The notes under the pieces are model-generated. The model was not told where the DNA came from. It did not search any database and saw only the letters and a program-made list of their open reading frames with translations. The translations under genes and the position numbers were made by a program. Shown one piece after another: positions 30 through 25,181 of a stretch of DNA of 25,181 nucleotides (the stretch's first letter is position 1; each line of letters opens with the position of its first letter). The stretch comes from a virus: IMG/VR virus record IMGVR_UViG_3300006737_000190, positions 1-25,181 of that record. One strand, given 5' to 3'.

Positions 30-2560
30 ACTTGATATTGCCCGTACTGCTGTTGCTGTGGAGTGGGCAACCTAAACGGCTGGTTCGTGTTGTATTGCGG
101 TATGGGAGTAAAGCCGGGGTAATACATCGCCTGACCAAATTGAGTCTGCTGTGGCTGTGGCTGTGGCTGTTGCGGCACCGGCACGCCAGCCTGCTGAGCC
201 TGTATGGCTAGCGCCTGCTGGCCTTGATTCAGGGCCTGCTGTTGCATAGCCGCCTGTTGCCCTTGGCCAAGGAAGTTGCCCACAGCCCCGAGTGTTGCCA
301 AACCAGTGCCTATGCCAGCTTGCAATGGGCTTGGCGCTGGGGTGAACTCCGTGCCTATCTGGCTTGGACCAGTCTGCTGTCCTGCGAGCTGAACGAAAGG
401 CAATAGACTTTGATACTGTTGCATAGGCGCCTGCTGAGCCTGCAACAAAGCGTTCCTTTGCGCATCGAGCTGAGCCTGATTCAGAGTTTGCTGTTGTCCG
501 CCAATCGCCTGTAGATTGGCAACATCTTGAGCGCCTGCGGACGCTACGCTTTGCCCTAGCCCTGTCATCTGCTGACCAAACTGAGTTTGAGCGCCCTGAC
601 GCAACTGCGCCTGCTGGCCGAGCATATTCGAGTAATTTTGCTGTGCGGCCATGCGCTGATTGGCCAAATTGCTCTGTTGTTGCGCCAGTTGTTGCTGAGA
701 AGCAAGTCTCTGTGCGGCTGTCTGCCCAAGAGTGGCCTGTCTTGCCTGAGAAGCCGCTTGCTGTGCCGCGGCCGCTGACATCTGCTGACCTGTCAAATCT
801 TTGGCGGCGCCAAATCTTTGACCGGCCAAGCCAGCAATCTGACTGCTAAATCTCTGTTGTGCCGCAAGTCGTTGCTGGGCGGCGTCACTCAAGGCGCCCG
901 CCATCCTCTCACCCGCACCACTTTCAAGCTGAGCGCGTTGCCCGATTTGGTCCGCCAATCGGCTTCCGGCACCAAATCTTTGTTGGGCTCCGCTTCCAAG
1001 TCGCGTTGCTAGTTGCTCGCCTGCACCAAAGCGCTGACCAGCTAGTGAGGCTAGTCCTGTTGCGGCCTGTCTTTGCGCGGCTTGCTGACGAGCAAACTCA
1101 CCAAGCGCCGTCTGCTGAGCTTGCTGGAAGCCTCCAGAGCGAATCGCTGATATTCTGTCTGCCAGACCGCGACCCAGTGCTTCTCTGCGCTCTTCGGCCG
1201 TCAATCTGGCTCTGGATCCAAACGCAGACTCACCACCCGTCTGAATGTCTCGCGCTCGCTGTGCAATATCTGCCTGATCGGCACCTTCCAACACATCTTC
1301 GATGGTCTGCTGAACCACTGCCTGCTCAAAGGGATCATAAAACTCGCCCGTCATACGCGGGTCGAATCCGCCAGTTGTGGCCCGTAGCCTTGCTTCTGAC
1401 TCGCCGAGTCGAGAACCGAGATCGGCAACACCCGCCGCAGAGCCAAGCTCTGATGCGCCCAATCGACGATCAAGCCCGCCAATAGCTGATCGTAACTCCC
1501 GCTCGGATCGCCCAAGGCCCGGCTGTAATCCAGAAATAGCACGTCTTCGCTCTGCGAGAGAGCCGCCAAGATCACCGCTGAAGTCATCAATTGCGACCTG
1601 CTCACGCCCCAAAGCTCTATCTAGCTGTTGCTCAAGCGTAGAGACACCGCCGCGCAGTGTGCCGGTGGCATCTCCTACCCTGCGGCCAAGATCTTTCTCT
1701 GCTTGCTCTGCCAGACCTTCGAGTTGTCCGAGGTCTTCGCCAAACCTGCCAGCGGCTTTACGGCCTAATCCTAGCGCTTCCTGCAATTCACTTGAATAAT
1801 CTCTTAACGCGCCGCGAGAGAAGTCTTTCTGCTCGTCAAGCCCGCTTGTCAACGCCCCGAGTCCGCGGCTATACGCTTGCTCTGCCGCACTTAGAAATGG
1901 AAGCTGTTGACCGACCTGAGACCGCGCGATGTCTTGGGCAAGTTGTTGATCGGCAGTGAGTCCAGCAATGGCCTGCGGAATGACAATCGGGCGACCCTGA
2001 TCGTCAAAGAATGTGCGCTCTGCCGCTCTAAAAGCGCCGGGCAAAAAGCCCTGCTGGGTTGCGTCACCAAACAGCAACTGCTGAATGATGGGGTCCATTG
2101 AGACATCGCGGCGTGCTATGCCGCTGACAAAAGGCGCTTCATTGCTGACCTGCTGGGGCGCCACTTGATCTTGGGTGGCGGGCGGTGGAGGTTGCGACCC
2201 TTGACCGCCGCCGGTTCCTTGAGGCTGGAAACCCGTAAATTGGGAACCGTAACCAAGATCAGTATAACTTCCCGGCTTACCTTCTGCGTCATAGTACTGA
2301 CCCATGACGGGGCCGTAGGGAAGATCTAAAATCTCGGGTGTGCCACCGGGGAAGGAGTAGGGAACGTTGGGTGTCTGATACTGAGCAACTGCTTGAGGGT
2401 TTTGTTGTGCAAAGGCATCAACTTCCGCTTGGTCGCCCGTAAATCCCACCGATTTCTGAACGGCCAAGGGGTAAGAATTAGGACCATAAATCGAAACCAA
2501 GTAGGCTTCTTGCTCTGGGGTCAATCCCGGCCCCCCCGTGGGCAACGGCATAATGCTCAT
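26..2560 (-). CDS. Giant helical internal virion (ejection) protein candidate
   Basis: The product has 844 residues. It has a Pro/Gly/Tyr-rich N-terminal 140 residues, then a long Ala/Gln/Gly/Arg-rich, almost certainly helical body, then a Gln/Pro-rich tail. Residues 343-396 and 507-668 fall into tandem 18-residue units (annotated separately). Residues 400-480 form a less repetitive block with acidic and basic helices. No signal peptide is visible, and only residues 745-765 are hydrophobic enough to touch a membrane. It lies one base after the 600-residue gene, at the end of the nozzle and internal-protein block. In podoviruses this position usually holds proteins packaged in the head and ejected with DNA, so that role is inferred from position, size and composition. 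Start ATG 2560 was chosen; the ATG at codon 4 is an alternative. It could instead be an elongated fibre or scaffold-like protein. Confidence 0.8.
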   Translation of the reverse strand: MSIMPLPTGGPGLTPEQEAYLVSIYGPNSYPLAVQKSVGFTGDQAEVDAFAQQNPQAVAQYQTPNVPYSFPGGTPEILDLPYGPVMGQYYDAEGKPGSYTDLGYGSQFTGFQPQGTGGGQGSQPPPPATQDQVAPQQVSNEAPFVSGIARRDVSMDPIIQQLLFGDATQQGFLPGAFRAAERTFFDDQGRPIVIPQAIAGLTADQQLAQDIARSQVGQQLPFLSAAEQAYSRGLGALTSGLDEQKDFSRGALRDYSSELQEALGLGRKAAGRFGEDLGQLEGLAEQAEKDLGRRVGDATGTLRGGVSTLEQQLDRALGREQVAIDDFSGDLGGSLAERRRAISGLQPGLGRSERELRSAIGGLDRRLGASELGSAAGVADLGSRLGESEARLRATTGGFDPRMTGEFYDPFEQAVVQQTIEDVLEGADQADIAQRARDIQTGGESAFGSRARLTAEERREALGRGLADRISAIRSGGFQQAQQTALGEFARQQAAQRQAATGLASLAGQRFGAGEQLATRLGSGAQQRFGAGSRLADQIGQRAQLESGAGERMAGALSDAAQQRLAAQQRFSSQIAGLAGQRFGAAKDLTGQQMSAAAAQQAASQARQATLGQTAAQRLASQQQLAQQQSNLANQRMAAQQNYSNMLGQQAQLRQGAQTQFGQQMTGLGQSVASAGAQDVANLQAIGGQQQTLNQAQLDAQRNALLQAQQAPMQQYQSLLPFVQLAGQQTGPSQIGTEFTPAPSPLQAGIGTGLATLGAVGNFLGQGQQAAMQQQALNQGQQALAIQAQQAGVPVPQQPQPQPQQTQFGQAMYYPGFTPIPQYNTNQPFRLPTPQQQQYGQYQV
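148..170. repeat. Hexanucleotide microsatellite encoding Pro-Gln repeats
   Basis: The hexamer GCTGTG is repeated just under four times on the plus strand. In the overlapping minus-strand gene this encodes alternating Pro-Gln in the C-terminal tail (about residues 797-804). It is a short, slippage-prone, low-complexity tract inside a coding region and is probably not functional as DNA. Confidence 0.6.
557..1042 (-). repeat. Nine tandem 18-residue (54-bp) helical repeats
   Basis: Residues 507-668 of the 844-residue protein divide without gaps into nine 18-residue units. Examples are AGQRFGAGEQLATRLGSG (507-524), AQQRFGAGSRLADQIGQR (525-542) and AQQRLAAQQRFSSQIAGL (561-578). The loose consensus is Ala at 1, Gln-Arg at 3-4, a hydrophobic residue at 5, a hydrophobic residue at 11 and Leu/Ile at 15. 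The unit at 597-614 is the weakest. Repeats are diverged at DNA level, so this is an old protein repeat rather than a recent tandem duplication. Confidence 0.75.
1373..1534 (-). repeat. Three further 18-residue units, second register
   Basis: Residues 343-396 of the same protein split into SGLQPGLGRSERELRSAI, GGLDRRLGASELGSAAGV and ADLGSRLGESEARLRATT. They share a Gly/Asp-Leu-x-x-x-Leu-Gly-x-Ser-Glu pattern. The period is the same as in the main block, but the consensus differs. Confidence 0.6.
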
Positions 2561-8667: not shown

Positions 8668-8987
8668 GTGATTGTCACCTCAACCGTGCCGACTGCCGCA
8701 GTAATCTGGAAAGCCGTCAACTCTGTGCCTAGCTTGCCAAGACCCACATTTGTATACACCATAAAAAAGTTGCCGTCTTTGCCCCCGCTTGAAGGATCAA
8801 TTCTGGCGTCTTTGACTGCCTCTGGATCAATCGGCGTAGGCGTTCTTTGCAACTGTGGATGCTTCGGAGACCATTGATCTGGGCCGACCAAAAGGCCGTC
8901 CCAAGTCTTTTTCATGTCTTTTAGCTTGTATCGGAATCCGGTTATGTCACAAATTCCAAAAGCGTTTTTGCCTGCCGCAAAAGCCAT
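8664..8987 (-). CDS. Small conserved neck-region protein
   Basis: The product has 107 residues. The conserved-looking N-terminus (KNAFGICDITGFRYKLKDMKKTWDGLLVGPDQW) contains an Asp/Gly turn and a Trp-Asp-Gly-Leu-Leu-Val motif. Pro-rich residues 41-56 follow, and the protein ends in a β-rich segment ending in VEVTIT. It starts as TAATG with the 231-residue adaptor-type gene and ends in ATGA with the 215-residue one, so it is made together with the head-tail connector. The FGICDITGFRY pattern with a single Cys recalls a small marine phage structural protein whose role is not established. No membrane or catalytic signature is visible. Confidence 0.75.
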   Translation of the reverse strand: MAFAAGKNAFGICDITGFRYKLKDMKKTWDGLLVGPDQWSPKHPQLQRTPTPIDPEAVKDARIDPSSGGKDGNFFMVYTNVGLGKLGTELTAFQITAAVGTVEVTIT

Positions 8988-9682
8988 TAGGCAATCCTGT
9001 AAATTGTCAGGTCTGGGGCAACTCTGAAGCTGGCGCGTGCCTGATCTTGAGAGAGAGCACGCTCAAACTCTTCTTCGTACAACTGCTTCAAAAGCGTGAC
9101 TTTTTCTGGCGCTCGCTTTAATGCCATGTAGTACGCCAGACCGGCCGCTAAGCACGGATAGAAGCGGAAAGGCACCTCCAGCGTATTTGCTCCCGCATCC
9201 GCGTCATCCATGCGGCTCAATACGTTCAAATAAATGGTATATGTCGAGTTCTTGTCAGGTGCTGGCCAAACCGTGATCGTGGGGCTAATCTGCTTATCAA
9301 TAAAATACTGATTTGGCTTGCCGGTCGTTGACTTGTTGGCCAAATGTGCATATTCAGCGCGTGAGAGCTTATTCAACGGCACATCTGTGTCAGTGCCTTG
9401 CACGGTTTCACGCACAAACACGTCTAGCACGTCAATCACTGATGTTGGATTGGTGCTGTCGATTGTGTACTGGGTTGTATCTTTGACGGCACTGATCGTT
9501 TTCTGGTTGATTGTCCACTGATTCAGGCCGCGATTAGCCCATTCCGCCAGCATTAGGTTCAAGGATCTTTGCGCTGTCTGGAGGTCATAGCCAGTGCGAA
9601 GCTCAAGCCCACAGCGCTCAAAAGCCTCTTCGACATAATCCGCTACATCTAACTCAAAATCTTTACTGCCGCTCGTCGCCAT
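8987..9682 (-). CDS. Head-tail adaptor-type protein (first of two)
   Basis: The product has 231 residues from ATG 9682. An in-frame GTG at 9691 would add three residues, but ATG was preferred. The helical N-terminus (DVADYVEEAFERCGLELRTG, then LNLMLAEWANRGLNQW) is followed by a β-rich centre with PNQYFID and TITVWPAPD, and a C-terminal helix pair (AGLAYYMALKRAPEK, then LYEEEFERALSQD). The LxxMLxEW...G motif near the N-terminus is a hallmark of P22 gp4-type packaged-DNA stabilising adaptors, which join portal and nozzle. The start lies 20 bases inside the preceding gene. Assignment is from motif layout and gene order. Confidence 0.75.
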   Translation of the reverse strand: MATSGSKDFELDVADYVEEAFERCGLELRTGYDLQTAQRSLNLMLAEWANRGLNQWTINQKTISAVKDTTQYTIDSTNPTSVIDVLDVFVRETVQGTDTDVPLNKLSRAEYAHLANKSTTGKPNQYFIDKQISPTITVWPAPDKNSTYTIYLNVLSRMDDADAGANTLEVPFRFYPCLAAGLAYYMALKRAPEKVTLLKQLYEEEFERALSQDQARASFRVAPDLTIYRIA

Positions 9683-10361
9683 CGTCAGCACCCGCGTATA
9701 GGTTGTTGAAAACCTGATTTACGTCCAAGGTGTAGTCTAAATCAGATTTTGAATAATGGATATGCTGAGAGGGCCTGAAGTCTGGAGCACCCTCACCTGT
9801 CTCGAACCATGCAGGATGTGTAACCCGCACCCTGTTGTTGGGCAACGCAACGATATTCCCTGTCCACGGACCCGCATCCAACAGCTCCAAGACGTGGCTT
9901 TGTTTGTGCTGAGCGGGATCGTCAGCGATCTCGTTCTCAGCATAATCCACTGTAAAATAGTATTTGGCGGGGTACATTTCGCCATCAATCATGGCAAGCC
10001 ATGGGCAGGGCGTCGCTCTATCCAGCACATAAACTGCGTGATGATGCGAGCTACAGTCCCACGGCTGAGCCGCCCAAACGGGCATCGGCTCTGGCCAGTC
10101 TTCGAGAGGAGTATCACCAACTAAGGCGGTGATAGGCATACGAGCCCACATGGCGCCGCCATGCACGTTGGGCTCATCATCTTCGTCGTAGGTCTCTGCT
10201 CCAGTAAAAATCAACTGAAAGCTCAAGCACCTCGTCGGCATGGTGGTAACAGCGATAGCCATGGCGTGAATAAACTCGCCGTGGTATTTCTGGTGATTAT
10301 GCGTGTACTCCCTGCGCACCCAGCACTTAAAGTGCGGGATGTTACTTTGCAAATACGCCAT
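9663..10361 (-). CDS. His/Trp-rich protein of unknown function
   Basis: The product has 232 residues. It is unusually rich in His, Trp, Pro and acidic residues, with CWVRREYTHNHQKYHGEFIHA (about 13-33), PWDCSSHHHAVYVLD (about 100-114) and a C-terminal PSQHIHYSKSD. The many His/Cys residues suggest a metal site, but I cannot match it to a known enzyme. A GGAAG sequence lies directly before the ATG within the upstream stop region. It follows the run of basic mini-proteins and overlaps the adaptor gene by 20 bases, so it is expressed with the connector. Intact homologous-looking proteins occur in uncultured marine phages (recalled). It could be a structural or an enzymatic protein. Confidence 0.75.
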   Translation of the reverse strand: MAYLQSNIPHFKCWVRREYTHNHQKYHGEFIHAMAIAVTTMPTRCLSFQLIFTGAETYDEDDEPNVHGGAMWARMPITALVGDTPLEDWPEPMPVWAAQPWDCSSHHHAVYVLDRATPCPWLAMIDGEMYPAKYYFTVDYAENEIADDPAQHKQSHVLELLDAGPWTGNIVALPNNRVRVTHPAWFETGEGAPDFRPSQHIHYSKSDLDYTLDVNQVFNNLYAGADDGDERQ

Positions 10362-10799
10362 TTATCTTCCGAACAGACCACTCTTTTTACTGCTAGGGGC
10401 ACGCATCTTTCTGCTCATGCCGCCCTTTGCGCCGCCCTTGGTTTTCATAGCGCCGCCTTTAGCCATGCCCTTCGACTTCATGGCTCCACCCTGAGCCATC
10501 TTGCGTCTCTGCGGCCCACCGCGTTTTTTAGCCCTTTTCTCCATCATTGTTTTTGCGGCTGGCATTGTGGCATCCATCAATTCGCCCAACATTCCACCCT
10601 TGGAGTAACCTTTGGTCTTCATAACTCCTCCTTCCTTCATCCCCAGCATGGGGGTCGCACGACTTTTAAAAGCGTTTCTAATTTGGTTGAGACTTCTTTT
10701 AGTTTTTCTCGCTTTGCGCTCATCTGCTTGCCCAGCACCGCGACCTCTACCTTGCATCGGCCTTTTTGATTTTTTAGGTAGTCCTCTTGTGAATGCCAT
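10362..10799 (-). CDS. Lys/Gly/Met-repeat basic protein
   Basis: The product has 145 residues from ATG 10799. A longer ATG at 10814 exists, but GGAGGG sits about eight bases before 10799 and would lie within the longer version's first codons, so the shorter form is preferred. It is extremely rich in Lys, Arg, Gly and Met. Units of the form GGAMKTKG-x-x-KGG occur once around residues 56-70 and twice near 103-127. The N-terminal MAFTRGLPKKSKRP and the C-terminal RAPSSKKSGLFGR are also basic. No hydrophobic core long enough for a stable globular fold is visible, so it may be disordered and nucleic-acid binding. It is the last and largest member of the run of small basic proteins. DNA condensation in the head is an inference. 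Confidence 0.8.
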   Translation of the reverse strand: MAFTRGLPKKSKRPMQGRGRGAGQADERKARKTKRSLNQIRNAFKSRATPMLGMKEGGVMKTKGYSKGGMLGELMDATMPAAKTMMEKRAKKRGGPQRRKMAQGGAMKSKGMAKGGAMKTKGGAKGGMSRKMRAPSSKKSGLFGR

Positions 10800-10814
10800 A
10801 TTTGTACCCTCCAA

Positions 10815-10994
10815 TTAACGCGGAACTCGCGTTGTTTTACGTCGATTATTCATCATTGCGCCACAGCCACGCCCTTGAACCTCGACGTAACCGCCTTTGT
10901 TTAGATTGCGAGCAATCGCCTCACCACGTTTTCGCTCGTAGCCAGATAGCTTGCCGTCTTTGTTCAAGTCAGCTTTTTTTTCGTCAATCTTCAT
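10815..10994 (-). CDS. 59-residue protein with an EF-hand-like loop
   Basis: This small gene begins with ATG at 10994 in an ATGA overlap with the preceding basic protein. It reads MKIDEKKADLNKDGKLSGYE at the N-terminus and ends at TAA 10815. Residues 9-20 (DLNKDGKLSGYE) have Asp 1, Asn 3, Asp 5, Gly 6, Leu 8, Ser 9 and Glu 12, the complete set expected of a canonical 12-residue EF-hand calcium loop. The rest is basic, ending in RGCGAMMNNRRKTTRVPR. One EF-hand is half a normal pair, so it may dimerise or pair with the EF-like loop of the 399-residue protein encoded nearby. Calcium binding is inferred from the motif. The phage role is unknown. Confidence 0.8.
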   Translation of the reverse strand: MKIDEKKADLNKDGKLSGYERKRGEAIARNLNKGGYVEVQGRGCGAMMNNRRKTTRVPR

Positions 10995-11245
10995 TTGCGA
11001 TGCCTCACTGTTTTTTTGGCAACCTTCTTTGGTTGCTTTGAAAACTGCTTGCCTTTCTTGGTGTCTGCTCGCTTTTTGCGGGTCGTGGCCGCGTATTCCT
11101 TGTCAGACATAGCCTTGATGGCTTTTTCGGGCAAGTAACGCTCGCCAGTGGCTTTCTTGCCTTGAGTGCTGGGCTTGCCAGATTTAGTGCGCCACTTTTG
11201 TTTCGTCCATTTTTTTAGGGACTTCTGTGACTTCTTGAGAGCCAT
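10991..11245 (-). CDS. Very basic small protein, KKWTKQKW type
   Basis: The product has 84 residues, about one third Lys/Arg, with few acidic residues. A conserved-looking core (KKWTKQKWRTKSGKPSTQGK, residues 11-30) is followed by ERYLPEKAIKAMSDKEYA. It begins in a TAATG overlap with the preceding gene and ends in an ATGA overlap with the EF-hand gene. The Trp-Thr-Lys-Gln-Lys-Trp-Arg-Thr-Lys-Ser-Gly-Lys segment is a signature of a small uncharacterised phage/bacterial family (DUF5872-like by memory). A nucleic-acid binding role is suggested by composition, not shown. No signal peptide or membrane segment is present. Confidence 0.8.
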   Translation of the reverse strand: MALKKSQKSLKKWTKQKWRTKSGKPSTQGKKATGERYLPEKAIKAMSDKEYAATTRKKRADTKKGKQFSKQPKKVAKKTVRHRK

Positions 11246-11457
11246 TAGTCCCTATATCCTCCCCCAGCTTTTTTATAGGCGGAGGCCAGCATTTGAGCTT
11301 TTCTTGCACTCCACTGACCGCTCCTGCCGCCCTTTGATCCCGACTTTATTTGATTAAAAAGCCGCTTTCGCAGAGTGGGCTTTGTGTAATTTCCTGCTTC
11401 ATTTACCCGAGACTTTGCTTTCTTTTTCGCCTTGGGTTTGGCCTTTGCCTTGGGCAT
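11245..11457 (-). CDS. Very basic small protein, SARKAQMLA type
   Basis: The product has 70 residues. The N-terminal 18 are nearly pure Lys/Ala/Pro (MPKAKAKPKAKKKAKSRV). The C-terminal motif GQWSARKAQMLASAYKKAGG occupies about residues 47-66. The KxxPKAKKKAK end resembles histone H1-like tails. The C-terminal part resembles a conserved short domain found repeatedly in small marine phage proteins. It is coupled to its neighbours by TAATG overlaps at both ends, sits among other basic mini-proteins, and is probably translated stoichiometrically with them. DNA binding or a role in head filling is inferred from charge only. Confidence 0.8.
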   Translation of the reverse strand: MPKAKAKPKAKKKAKSRVNEAGNYTKPTLRKRLFNQIKSGSKGGRSGQWSARKAQMLASAYKKAGGGYRD

Positions 11458-12681: not shown

Positions 12682-12966
12682 CTACCAAGCCTTGCACGAC
12701 CAGTATCTGGCCGAAAACTTGTCTTTTGCCGTGTCGCATTTGTGCCGCGCTCGGAAAGATTTACGTCTAGCAGGCTGACTTTTTTTGATCGTCATCTTGC
12801 TATCGCCGTACCTGACCAGCTTGACCTCATTGCCCTTTTTGGCAAGGACCGCACTTTTCTTGGCCTTGTTGGGCGTTCGTTTTGGCTTGTTGTAGCCAGC
12901 AAAAGTCTCCCCTCGGTACTGTAGTCGCCCAGAGGGGAGTCGTTTAACGTCTTTGGTCGTTGCCAT
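12682..12966 (-). CDS. Basic small protein with C-terminal Cys/Trp motif
   Basis: The product has 94 residues and is rich in Lys and Arg. The N-terminal RLPSGRLQYRGETFAGYNKPKR leads to KKSAVLAKKGNEVKLVRYGD. The C-terminus ends RARHKCDTAKDKFSARYWSC followed by KAW, with His75, Cys77 and Cys91. The HxC...YWSCxxW ending is a pattern I recall in small podovirus proteins of unknown function. Two Cys and one His are too few for a full zinc site unless the protein dimerises. The ribosome binding site is weak. It lies two bases after the preceding stop and is part of the basic mini-protein run. Confidence 0.8.
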   Translation of the reverse strand: MATTKDVKRLPSGRLQYRGETFAGYNKPKRTPNKAKKSAVLAKKGNEVKLVRYGDSKMTIKKSQPARRKSFRARHKCDTAKDKFSARYWSCKAW

Positions 12967-17972: not shown

Positions 17973-20480
17973 CTATAAGCGAATGCCATACTTTGCTTGA
18001 AGCTCAAGAAGTTTCAAGTCTGTCTGAGTTTTAAGACGATCCATGGCCAAATCCATCTTTTCGTCATTGTTGTCCTTAGTAGCATCAACACGCTGTTTAG
18101 CTATCTCAGCCTCTAAAAGTTTTTCGTTAGCCCGAGCCTGCTCTTTTTGCTCGAACTGACTTTGATCTTGTTGAAGCTCTGCCGCCCTAATATCTAGCTC
18201 CTGCTGTCTGATCGCCACTAGCGGATCTTCTGAATTACCTTGTCCAATGCTTATCAAAAACTCTTGGGTAAGCTGGGCCAAAATTGGGGCGGAGGCTTGC
18301 TCAATTAACGCCATCATCTCTTGTTGCATTGGCGCCAAGACCTCGGGCGGCACTTGCCCAGATTGCGCCAACTGCTCTATCTGCGCCGTCTGTTGTGTGA
18401 TTTCTGGGGGCAACTGTTGCGTGGCAATCTCTGTGGCCATAAATTGCAAATGCTGGCAACAGTGAGAAATAATCAAAGCCTGTATTTGAGGCGTCGTTTT
18501 TACAATCTCTGTAAGAAATAAGCTCCTATGCGCATCCACATGGGCTCTGTGATTTTGATTTGGGAACGCTTGTTGTGGTTGTCCCGCCAATAACCCAGCG
18601 TTTTCTAGACCGGCGTCCACTGGCATTGGTTGGGGCGGTGGTGCAGGGGGCTGAAGCAAGCCCTCCACGTTATCAACTCCTAGCGCCGCATACATACGCC
18701 TATAAGCCTCATACATTCCCTGCGGCCCATGGATCTGAGGATTTGATTGCACAAGCTGTAAAAGCTCCTGAGCCATAGTGATCCGCTGGCTCTGGCTGAA
18801 GATATTGGGATCGCTTACGGGTATGACGTCGATTCTGCCATCGAAGTCCTGCACCTTGATCTCAGATGGCCCAGATCCGGTCTGATACGGATAGTTCGGA
18901 GGCAAAAACTCTGCAAAAACGCGAGCTAATAATTGAAACTCTATTTTTTGACTGTAATGAAGCCGCTTGTGGATAGCAGACATGACCTTGGTGCCGCGCT
19001 CTAGCAAAGCGACAGTTGTGCCCACCGGCATGGCCTGATTCATGTCTCCCACGTTCATGTCGGCAATAGAGGCGAATCGTTTGCCAGAATCCACCAACAG
19101 GCCGAGCAAGCTCATCAGTACATTGCTGGGCTCTTTAATAGGCAGAGGTATCAAGTTCTCTCGGAGATTGCCGCCAGTCGTGTCAATATCACGGAACTCG
19201 CCCGGCTGAAGCGGCTCATCCTCGTCCCTAATGCGCATACCGCGAGCCTTGAAGCCCGCAGGTAGGTTTGCCAAGGTTCCAGCGTCAATTAATTGACGCA
19301 AAATCGAGGTGCTTGCTTTTGCAAGACCGCCAATCATGTGGCTCAGGCCAAGGCCGTAAAAACCAAGGCCCGGCAAGAATTTATACTGCACAAAATAGTT
19401 TATTTTGATTTTGAGAACGTCCGTTTCTAAATAATTACGCCTGATAGAAAGAACTTTTTGGCTCACATCGTCTATTGTCACGATGTAAGGCAGTTTCAGT
19501 CCGGTGGGCTGGCCATCCGCGCCGACATCCTCAAAACCGGGCAAATCGAGGACCGTGTGGACCTCGTAAACGGTATGGTCGCGAGTATTTTTACTGCTCG
19601 GCTCCATACCCTCGATAGAATCAATCTCTTCTTCGATCTCTGATCGTGAGAAGGCGTACCCACCATCAGAGATGTTGATGTCCGCATAGAATCCGTTGAG
19701 TTGTTGCTTGCGAATTTCGTTTTTGGACATCTGGAGCACATGAGTTACGCGCTCTGCGGTGAAAAGGTCGGATGCTTCGTAAGGCACAATAAGATCTTGC
19801 GGCTCGATGAATTTTGACATGGCACGATTGACTGCCGTGTCAAAGTATACTTTTTTGAACGCAGACCCCGCGAGCGGCAGATAAAACAACAGCATATCCA
19901 GCTCTGGATCAAACTCCTGCATCACATTCAGGATGTAGAAGTTCATAAACTCCTCGACACGAGAAGCCTGCGCGTCTGATTCGGGAGTTCGAGCACCCAC
20001 CACTTCCGTCTTGACTGGACCCTTTGCGGGGAGCATCTCCTTATATGCCTGCGCTTGGAACTGAGTCACGGCTTCGGCAAGGATTGGATGAATGACGCCA
20101 GTGGATCCTTGGAAGGGAGAAGATCGGGCCTCATCAAATTTCATGCCTAAGTATTTCAGGCCGTCAACGTAAGTCTTTTCCCAGTCAGCACGGCTTTCTT
20201 TGTCAGAGTCAATGCCAGCCAAAATCTCTTTTGAAATTACCATCAAGTCAACGTCATCAATTTCGTCAACCAGATTTGCATTGAATGCCGTTTGAGGCAT
20301 CTCCATCTGAGGGGCATCGATTTCGTCATCGACCAATATCGCATCATCGGCGACCAGTATTTCTGCCGCCGCACGGATTTGATCTTGGCGAGTCGGCTCT
20401 GGAGTTACCTCCATTGCGTTGCCCATGGGCATCACGTTTGGGTCTGAATCGGTGCCAAGTTCTCTTTTTTCGATAGCCAT
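17973..20480 (-). CDS. Portal protein
   Basis: The product has 835 residues. An acidic N-terminal extension (to about 75) precedes a conserved core: DSDKESRADWEKTYVDGLKY (91-110), SPFQGSTGVIHPILAEAVTQ (121-140) and AYKEMLPAKGPVKTEVVG. These are features of the P22-like portal group that forms the dodecameric DNA gate and packaging docking ring. The C-terminal 90 residues form an uninterrupted Gln/Glu/Ala/Lys helix (IRQQELDIRAAELQQDQSQF and on), as expected for the long barrel helix of P22-type portals that senses packaging pressure. A Pro/Gln-rich linker (about 620-650) precedes it. The start overlaps the terminase stop as TGATG. The length is large compared with the P22 portal (725). Confidence 0.88.
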   Translation of the reverse strand: MAIEKRELGTDSDPNVMPMGNAMEVTPEPTRQDQIRAAAEILVADDAILVDDEIDAPQMEMPQTAFNANLVDEIDDVDLMVISKEILAGIDSDKESRADWEKTYVDGLKYLGMKFDEARSSPFQGSTGVIHPILAEAVTQFQAQAYKEMLPAKGPVKTEVVGARTPESDAQASRVEEFMNFYILNVMQEFDPELDMLLFYLPLAGSAFKKVYFDTAVNRAMSKFIEPQDLIVPYEASDLFTAERVTHVLQMSKNEIRKQQLNGFYADINISDGGYAFSRSEIEEEIDSIEGMEPSSKNTRDHTVYEVHTVLDLPGFEDVGADGQPTGLKLPYIVTIDDVSQKVLSIRRNYLETDVLKIKINYFVQYKFLPGLGFYGLGLSHMIGGLAKASTSILRQLIDAGTLANLPAGFKARGMRIRDEDEPLQPGEFRDIDTTGGNLRENLIPLPIKEPSNVLMSLLGLLVDSGKRFASIADMNVGDMNQAMPVGTTVALLERGTKVMSAIHKRLHYSQKIEFQLLARVFAEFLPPNYPYQTGSGPSEIKVQDFDGRIDVIPVSDPNIFSQSQRITMAQELLQLVQSNPQIHGPQGMYEAYRRMYAALGVDNVEGLLQPPAPPPQPMPVDAGLENAGLLAGQPQQAFPNQNHRAHVDAHRSLFLTEIVKTTPQIQALIISHCCQHLQFMATEIATQQLPPEITQQTAQIEQLAQSGQVPPEVLAPMQQEMMALIEQASAPILAQLTQEFLISIGQGNSEDPLVAIRQQELDIRAAELQQDQSQFEQKEQARANEKLLEAEIAKQRVDATKDNNDEKMDLAMDRLKTQTDLKLLELQAKYGIRL

Positions 20481-24142: not shown

Positions 24143-25181
24143 TTAGCCCTTTACAAGTATTTCGGTTGCTGAAACTGCTGTGCCTGCTGTAACAGATGGC
24201 GAGGCCGCTGTAGTGCCTATTGTGCCATCTCCCTGCACAAAATACGTTTGCCCTGCGGTCAAGCTGGTCTGTTTGTCGTTGACTGAGCCACCTAGCTGAA
24301 TCGTCGCTAGACCATTATCGGTACAGTCATTTTCCGCAAAGCCAATAAAGTTTTCTGAGGTTAGGTTTGTTGATGACGCTTTGAAAACAACAGCCGTTCC
24401 GTAATCACCGTTGCCGCCGTCCCTGTAAGCTATAACAGTTCTATTTGCGTTGGAGTCATAGGCGGCGGATAAATAATCGGCGCTCGCATTTTCAAATACA
24501 ACGGCTGAACCAAAGCTAATTGAAGTGCCGCTTACTGTTCCAGAAATAGCAGTTCCGTAAGCGCCAGAAGCGTTGTTTTTATAAACTATAACAACTTGCT
24601 GAGCGCCAGAATCATAAACCGCAAAAGGTTCTGCGGTATTCGCGGCGGCAAATACAACGGCTGAACCAAACGAAATACTTGTCCCACTCACCGTTCCTAC
24701 AACAGCCGTGCCGTAATCACTGTTATCGTCATCTTCATAAGCGACTACCACTTTCTGAGCATTGGAATCATAAACGGCCCGCACGGAAAGAGCGGTTGCG
24801 CTTTCAAATACTGCCGCGCTACCAAAACTAATCGACGTGCCACTCACCGTCCCTACAATAGCCGTGCCGTAACTAGAGTTTCCCTCATCTTGATACGCTA
24901 TAACGACTTTCTGGGCGTTAGAGTCATAAACAATTGAGTTATATTCTACTGCCGCACTCTCAAATACAGCCGCACTTCCAAAGCTAATCGACGTGCCGCT
25001 AACTGTTCCAACGATAGCAGTACCGTAGTTAGAATTTCCATTATCGGCGTAGGCAATCACCACCTTTCCAGCGTTAGCGTCGTAAGCAATTGATGGGCTG
25101 GGGGAGTTTGCGCTTTCATATACAGCGGCACTTCCAAAACTAATAGACGTACCACTGACCGTCCCAACAATAGCAGTGCCA
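24143..25181 (-). CDS. Tail-fibre-like protein with 52-residue repeats (5' end missing)
   Basis: The C-terminal 345 residues are visible, and the reading frame is open to the window edge. Five back-to-back 52-residue units (annotated) share GTAIVGTVSGTSISFGSA and YDSNAQKVVIAY segments. Residues after them (FIGFAENDCTDNGLATIQLGG, then TAGQTYFVQGDGTIGTTAAS and SATEILVKG) form a C-terminal β-domain often placed at the end of phage and bacterial surface proteins. The four-strand feel of each unit suggests a β-propeller or solenoid. The gene sits directly before the lysis module. A receptor-binding or fibre role is inferred. No chaperone-cleavage or trimerisation motif is evident. Confidence 0.75.
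   Translation of the reverse strand, partial: GTAIVGTVSGTSISFGSAAVYESANSPSPSIAYDANAGKVVIAYADNGNSNYGTAIVGTVSGTSISFGSAAVFESAAVEYNSIVYDSNAQKVVIAYQDEGNSSYGTAIVGTVSGTSISFGSAAVFESATALSVRAVYDSNAQKVVVAYEDDDNSDYGTAVVGTVSGTSISFGSAVVFAAANTAEPFAVYDSGAQQVVIVYKNNASGAYGTAISGTVSGTSISFGSAVVFENASADYLSAAYDSNANRTVIAYRDGGNGDYGTAVVFKASSTNLTSENFIGFAENDCTDNGLATIQLGGSVNDKQTSLTAGQTYFVQGDGTIGTTAASPSVTAGTAVSATEILVKG
24401..25180 (-). repeat. Five exact-length 156-bp tandem repeats in the tail protein gene
   Basis: Units start at 25180, 25024, 24868, 24712 and 24556, each 156 bases (52 residues) long, with no insertions or deletions between them. The GTVSGTSISFGSA core is identical in all five. Residues 21-31 and 45-51 of the unit vary. 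Synonymous positions have diverged: GTVSG is GGG-ACG-GTC-AGT-GGT in the first unit and GGA-ACA-GTT-AGC-GGC in the second. More units probably lie to the right of the window. Confidence 0.9.

Follow-up and report, generated by a model that had tools for sequence, protein, structure and literature searches.

A putative SU10-type phage ejection protein predicted to form a helical hairpin of modular length

The locus and its genes

The window analyzed here, a 25,181 nucleotide stretch that forms the whole of the viral sequence under study, is marine phage DNA, and its gene content (Table 1) identifies it as part of a short-tailed, SU10-type genome. The gene of interest encodes an 844 amino acid protein and belongs to a module with a constant gene order: nozzle, a 104 aa protein, a 600 aa protein, the putative hairpin protein, a ~450 aa protein (sometimes split), and a protein of 800-1100 aa. 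It sits between the nozzle/needle genes and the large last ejection/DNA-transfer protein, as in the SU10-type module. The 600 aa neighbor, like the protein encoded at 3803-5959 in the relative L010, carries a C-terminal motif (MLSDGEFVMTGRAV) common to several tape-measure PHROGs; the module is that of a short-tailed phage.

Table 1. Predicted features of the window and of the 844 aa protein
Feature	Residues	Window position	Strand	Basis
Putative hairpin ejection-type protein, whole ORF	844 aa	26..2560	-	at least 583 relatives in IMG/VR
N-terminal region, low-confidence coil, variable among relatives	1-149	2114..2560	-	AF2 pLDDT 33-55; alignment
N-side base block, conserved DPxTQQLLFG...ERTFFDDQGRP...AGL	150-202	1955..2113	-	alignments; AF2 strand E150-153
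N-arm, 18-residue-period helix	203-396	1373..1954	-	AF2 helices, pLDDT mostly 75-82; lag-18 z=6.4
Three 18-residue units within the N-arm	343-396	1373..1534	-	sequence periodicity
Tip domain, length constant in relatives	397-484	1109..1372	-	anchors ~70 aa apart
Tip loop GGESAFGSRARL, symmetry center	441-454	1199..1240	-	AF2 loop between helices 410-440 and 455-529
C-arm, 18-residue-period helix	485-729	374..1108	-	AF2 helices 455-729; lag-18 z=5.4
Nine gapless 18-residue units	507-668	557..1042	-	sequence periodicity
C-side base block, TEFTPxPSxLQAGxGTGLATLGAxGNF; glycine-rich, hydrophobic	730-765	266..373	-	alignments; AF2 strand E734-737
Upstream neighbor, probable ejection-cassette member	600 aa	2562..4364	-	C-terminal motif common to tape-measure profiles; conserved order
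Nozzle/stabilization-type protein	631 aa	4675..6570	-	phrog_3287 E=3.9e-60; isolate homologue annotated stabilization protein
SU10-type tail adaptor		8987..9691	-	PF24175 SU10_adaptor, 55.5 bits vs cut-off 27
Group of small, strongly basic proteins rich in Lys and Gly		10362..11457 and 12682..12966	-	lies between head and adaptor genes
SU10-type portal		17973..20480	-	PF23899 SU10_portal, 38.9 bits vs cut-off 30
Open-ended ORF at contig edge, probably a repeat-built tail fiber or adhesin-like protein		24143..25180	-	~52-residue repeats (YGTAIVGTVSGTSISFGSAAVFESA), 156-bp tandem array

The 844 aa protein has no direct Pfam, PHROG or phage tblastn match. Its composition is Ala/Gln/Gly-rich, and Cys and Trp are missing from every relative sampled. 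Alignments of the relatives show that GSR is invariant in the AFGSRAR tip loop, and the spacing of the tip-domain anchors is about 70 aa (67-70 in most members). The tip-domain profile also matches isolate phages, with E values down to 1.6e-14.

A 1186 aa protein annotated as “internal virion protein D” (L213, 9188-12742 of MW202675.1) bears the tip-domain profile (E=7.5e-14), which suggests that the domain was fused to a larger ejection protein. Short tip-domain relatives (L041, 5803-6792, and the similar loci L042-L051) terminate in a self-processing chaperone of the Peptidase_S74-like kind (PF13884; 21 bits, marginally below the cut-off of 22), which would be unusual for an ejection protein.

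An 18-residue helical period in two arms

A preliminary description had noted two blocks of 18-residue units, nine without gaps and three more with a different consensus, and the units read as described. Identity autocorrelation of residues 330-710 gives z=6.7 at lag 18; for residues 507-668 the values are z=5.9 at lag 18 and z=7.5 at lag 36. In 2000 shuffles of these residues the maxima observed in the 844 aa protein were never attained, so Ala/Gln composition does not account for the period. The peak thus falls at 18 (z about 6-7) as had been anticipated, and the signal at lags 7 and 11 is at or near background. The whole N-arm (residues 225-400, z=6.4 at lag 18) and the whole C-arm (residues 484-700, z=5.4) are periodic, and the signal is absent from residues 400-484, between the arms, and from the N-terminus. 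The hydrophobic positions of the unit are 5, 11, and 15, those first named, plus 18 as a fourth. Tandem Repeats Finder detected no DNA array in the hairpin gene except a 6-base run at 148-170. As the repeat is gone from the DNA, the period is old and maintained at the protein level.

For large hydrophobic residues in the relatives, both arms have their spectral maximum at 3.59-3.60 residues per turn, with a peak power of 9.9 in the N-arm and 7.8 in the C-arm (about 1.0 in shuffled sequences). At 3.6 the N-arm has a power of 9.7 and the C-arm 7.6; the corresponding values are 1.1 and 2.2 for a period of 3.5 and 1.6 and 1.1 for 3.67. This agrees with the proposed repeat of five helical turns (18/3.6), and one unit corresponds to about 27 angstrom (2.7 nm). 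The arm helices are predicted from this periodicity to be nearly straight and not heptad-based; a heptad coiled coil is ruled out by the position of the peak and the little power at 3.5. The preliminary description had envisaged a straight helix, and its nearly straight, non-heptad character is retained here, but the two blocks do not form one helix and belong to opposite arms of a hairpin. We likewise reject the reading of the blocks as independent repeats of different consensus.

In the AF2 model of the 844 aa protein, residues 203-396, 410-440, and 455-729 are helical and residues 441-454 form a loop. Each base end has one strand (150-153 and 734-737). Structure prediction, which had been suggested as a check, returns helical arms, but overall confidence is low (pLDDT 62, pTM 0.31) and the tertiary fold is uncertain. 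The values for a short member of the family are pLDDT 46 and pTM 0.18. A Foldseek search with the AF2 model of the window protein gave no significant PDB match and a single weak, uninformative viral match, as expected given the long helices and the low pTM. A sequence search of solved structures gave chance coiled-coil matches only.

Matched arms and mirrored indels in relatives

A first scan yielded 55 relatives, and later sets comprised 109 and then 167 distinct sequences. Indels in pairwise alignments are multiples of 18 residues and are paired, flanking the constant domain of ~70 residues. Arm lengths were counted from residue G448 at the tip to D156 at the N-base and to P712 at the C-base, all three located by profile. 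The 109 distinct relatives fall on a ladder, with C-arms of 127, 145, 163... or 138, 174, 192... residues, and their C-arm minus N-arm difference is -28 to -31 or -21 to -23, with the exceptions of L060 (-5) and L192 (-35). The lengths of the two arms are correlated at 0.998 (Pearson) in 47 non-redundant members and at r=0.999 in the 167 relatives, among which arm lengths span 55 to 606 residues and the standard deviation of the difference is 3.6, compared with 111 after shuffling. Misplacement of the tip cannot yield a positive correlation because such an error moves the arms in opposite directions.

The prediction of matched arms and an 18-residue ladder was recorded before further scans, and 58 new distinct relatives were then scored. 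The predicted arm difference occurs in 55 of them; the other three (L352, L372, and L373, with identical arm lengths) have a difference of -33 via a 5-residue difference near the base. The C-arm lies on the predicted ladder in 53 of the 58, and the remaining five are one class in which both arms are shifted by 4. The arms of L376 (1331 aa) are 634 and 606 residues long, and the difference is still exactly 28. We regard the matched-arm architecture as very probable, and the two repeat blocks are probably the opposite arms of one hairpin around the conserved tip.

The L376 gene (3944-7936) encodes ~34 units per arm and has an internal duplication of ~108 residues (six units) in the C-arm. A super-period of 36 residues (two units) exceeds the 18-residue period in strength in this protein.

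A tree of 151 rows was built from the non-arm columns only (tip domain included). On it, the N-arm requires a minimum of 57 changes, the C-arm 51, and the arm difference 13. In 46 of 53 reconstructed arm-length events the two arms change by the same amount (to within 2 residues), and 40 of these 46 are exact multiples of 18 (36 residues in 13 events, 18 in 11, and 54 in 10). The remaining equal events include changes of 4, 7, 11, 29, 47, and 101 residues, near whole helical turns. The preliminary description had held that indels between homologues should respect multiples of 18, and both the ladder and the tree events do so.

Close pairs (at least 72% identity) have N- and C-arm indels equally distant from the tip. 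Across 21 hand-selected cases, one per event-like case, that span 52-213 residues from the tip, the tip distances on the two sides correlate strongly (r=0.986) and are offset by 7 residues on average. L357 and L376, for example, differ by N-arm indels of 36, 108, and 72 residues at 252, 151, and 103 residues from the tip and by C-arm indels of 72, 108, and 36 residues at 85, 128, and 241 residues from it. L314 and L318 have a paired 22-residue indel besides a paired 18. Mirrored indels are what antiparallel arms lying side by side would require.

These patterns bear on the idea that the 18-residue repeat is structurally meaningless slippage in low-complexity sequence. Slippage would suit the Ala/Gln/Gly-rich composition, and single 54-nt indels do occur (L059 vs L060), but it does not account for at least 40 reconstructed events in which equal changes fall at mirrored positions, for a tip and N-terminus without the 18-residue signal, or for the sharp 3.6 peak. 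Slippage alone is refuted by the matched-arm rule, and we give this explanation next to no credence.

A few loci are informative about how paired changes could come about. Over the first 1225 bases of the gene, L059 and L060 share 99.9% DNA identity; a single 54-nt indel, in the C-arm only, separates them. L062 is longer in both arms. The arms of L060 are unmatched, and its close relatives are matched at one unit fewer and one unit more. L060 is either a real unmatched intermediate, with change proceeding stepwise in one arm at a time, or an assembly artefact. Between L013 and L019, DNA identity falls to 80% in the stretch bounded by the two indels, compared with 95% and 88% on the outside, which suggests that the distal hairpin was swapped as a single cassette.

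Arms could also be paired between subunits, the N-arm of one chain lying on the C-arm of its neighbor within an oligomeric tube or bundle. The arm matching and the mirrored indels demand pairing at an equal level but are silent on whether the partners belong to the same chain, and multi-chain tubes are typical of ejection proteins (PMC10925440, PMC8954989). We consider this arrangement unlikely, since the shared tip and the presence of both base-end strands in one AF2 chain favor a simple hairpin, and we infer that the arms pack within one chain.

Family relationships and proposed function

SU10 gp21 and gp22 are among the best matches to phrog_4287 (“DNA ejection protein”), with E values of 1e-118 and 3.5e-109. 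The same module occurs in the isolate phages DSL-LC04, Pelagibacter phages HTVC023P and HTVC027P, and Planktothrix phage Pag-Yong1, and the short relatives encoded there carry the hairpin tip and C-block profiles. These short relatives match phrog_4287 over most of their length (E 5.6e-6 to 2e-19), and one hairpin member, L027, matches it directly over the C-arm and C-flank (4.9e-5), although Q/A/G-rich composition can inflate scores against this profile. The window protein itself lacks a phrog_4287 match, so the assignment is by a chain through relatives. By this route the 844 aa protein is probably an ejection protein, one that enters the host before the DNA, as the preliminary description supposed of its ejection, and a distant member of the SU10 gp21/gp22 family.

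The hairpin protein resembles gp21/gp22 of SU10 (phiEco32-like viruses) in its position after the nozzle and needle genes, in the family profile reached via its short relatives, in its Ala/Gln-rich composition, and in its Gly-rich hydrophobic end. The SU10 proteins differ in being 322-350 aa long without 18-residue periodicity, whereas hairpin arms, extended by matched units of 18, reach 606 residues. SU10 gp20-24 are located in the virion head and are lost on genome release (PMC9509320).

An external appendage of variable length, such as a tail fiber or whisker that is not ejected, would make the very long arms easier to place, and the Peptidase_S74-like chaperone at the end of some short relatives is typical of fibers. 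The conserved position within the nozzle-to-DNA-transfer cassette and the match to the gp21/gp22 family, which leaves the virion on genome release, make such an appendage quite improbable.

A further candidate is a siphovirus-like tape measure, a protein that determines how long the tail is. Tape-measure proteins of long-tailed phages also evolve in length by whole repeat units (PMC3271669), and the neighboring protein has the tape-measure-like C-terminal motif. Unlike the hairpin protein, they have an 11-residue (33 bp) unit that runs in a single direction, and matched antiparallel arms are no known tape-measure feature. The window encodes a portal, adaptor, and nozzle of the SU10 (short-tailed) type, and no major tail-tube gene was recognized in it. 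We find a tape measure very hard to reconcile with these features.

Like the hairpin protein, T7 gp15, P22 gp20, and DEV gp72/N4 gp51 are helical ejection-cassette proteins beside a much larger partner, but none has an 18-residue period. T7 gp15 and DEV gp72 refold into tubes after ejection (PMC8954989, PMC10925440). N4 gp51 is a helical hairpin at the portal (PMC12633501), and its DEV counterpart is a nonameric tube (PMC10925440). There is no homology to T7 gp15 or P22 gp20 by hhalign (probability 0.5% for both), and N4 gp51 has a marginal tip-profile score only (E=0.01).

In the cytoplasmic hairpin of the bacterial chemoreceptor, the tip is conserved and seven-residue indels occur symmetrically, in pairs, in the two arms (PMC5907407). 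It is likewise a long antiparallel hairpin with length changes that are paired and mirror-symmetric about the tip, but its quantum is 7 residues in a left-handed coiled coil, compared with 18 in the nearly straight phage hairpin. The sequences are unrelated, and the chemoreceptor functions in signaling and the phage protein in a structural cassette. None of the three elements, ejection protein, helical hairpin, or symmetric indels, is new by itself. A search of PubMed Central open papers found no matched-arm, 18/5 straight-hairpin phage protein, and those papers did not yield their combination with an 18-residue straight-helix quantum, an at least seven-fold length range, and a strict matching rule.

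Taken as a whole, the protein is likely an SU10-type ejection protein that forms an antiparallel helical hairpin of modular length. The conserved N- and C-flanking blocks would form a base from which two nearly straight arms reach the tip loop. Units would be kept or lost pairwise at the same level because the arms pack side by side. Predicted rod lengths range from about 8 to 91 nm. The upper value, that of a 606-residue arm, argues against straight storage in the head and against a ruler of periplasm length; the longest arms would probably be too long to lie straight inside the head of a typical podovirus. Storage would most likely not be as a rigid full-length rod. Helices that are rich in Gly and seemingly marginal, and that lack Cys and Trp, would suit a protein that unfolds to pass a narrow channel, a point that is only suggestive.

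The hairpin may pass through the portal and nozzle and refold outside, where we infer that several copies could bundle into a conduit extending the nozzle across the envelope. The count of unit pairs would then set the length of this conduit. By analogy with the ejection proteins above, a role as conduit or length ruler is conceivable, and we advance it with reserve. The ruler had been part of the preliminary description, and the number of units does vary among relatives; a measured length, however, would be a further step, as no neighboring gene scales consistently with arm length (within clades or among the longest members) and arms reach ~91 nm. More speculatively still, the hairpin rods might act as a modular ruler with 2.7-nm steps from ~8 to 91 nm that sets the length of the conduit or internal core, with length classes adapted to host envelopes.

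For most short-tailed phages it is an open question how the cell envelope is spanned and what fixes the length of the conduit, and the ejection proteins are unresolved in the SU10 structure. The family described here offers natural rods of many lengths that follow a strict rule, and it would allow a direct test, with 2.7 nm expected per unit pair. The paired-indel rule provides structural evidence from sequence alone where prediction confidence is low, and straight 18/5 hairpins may be a useful design motif.
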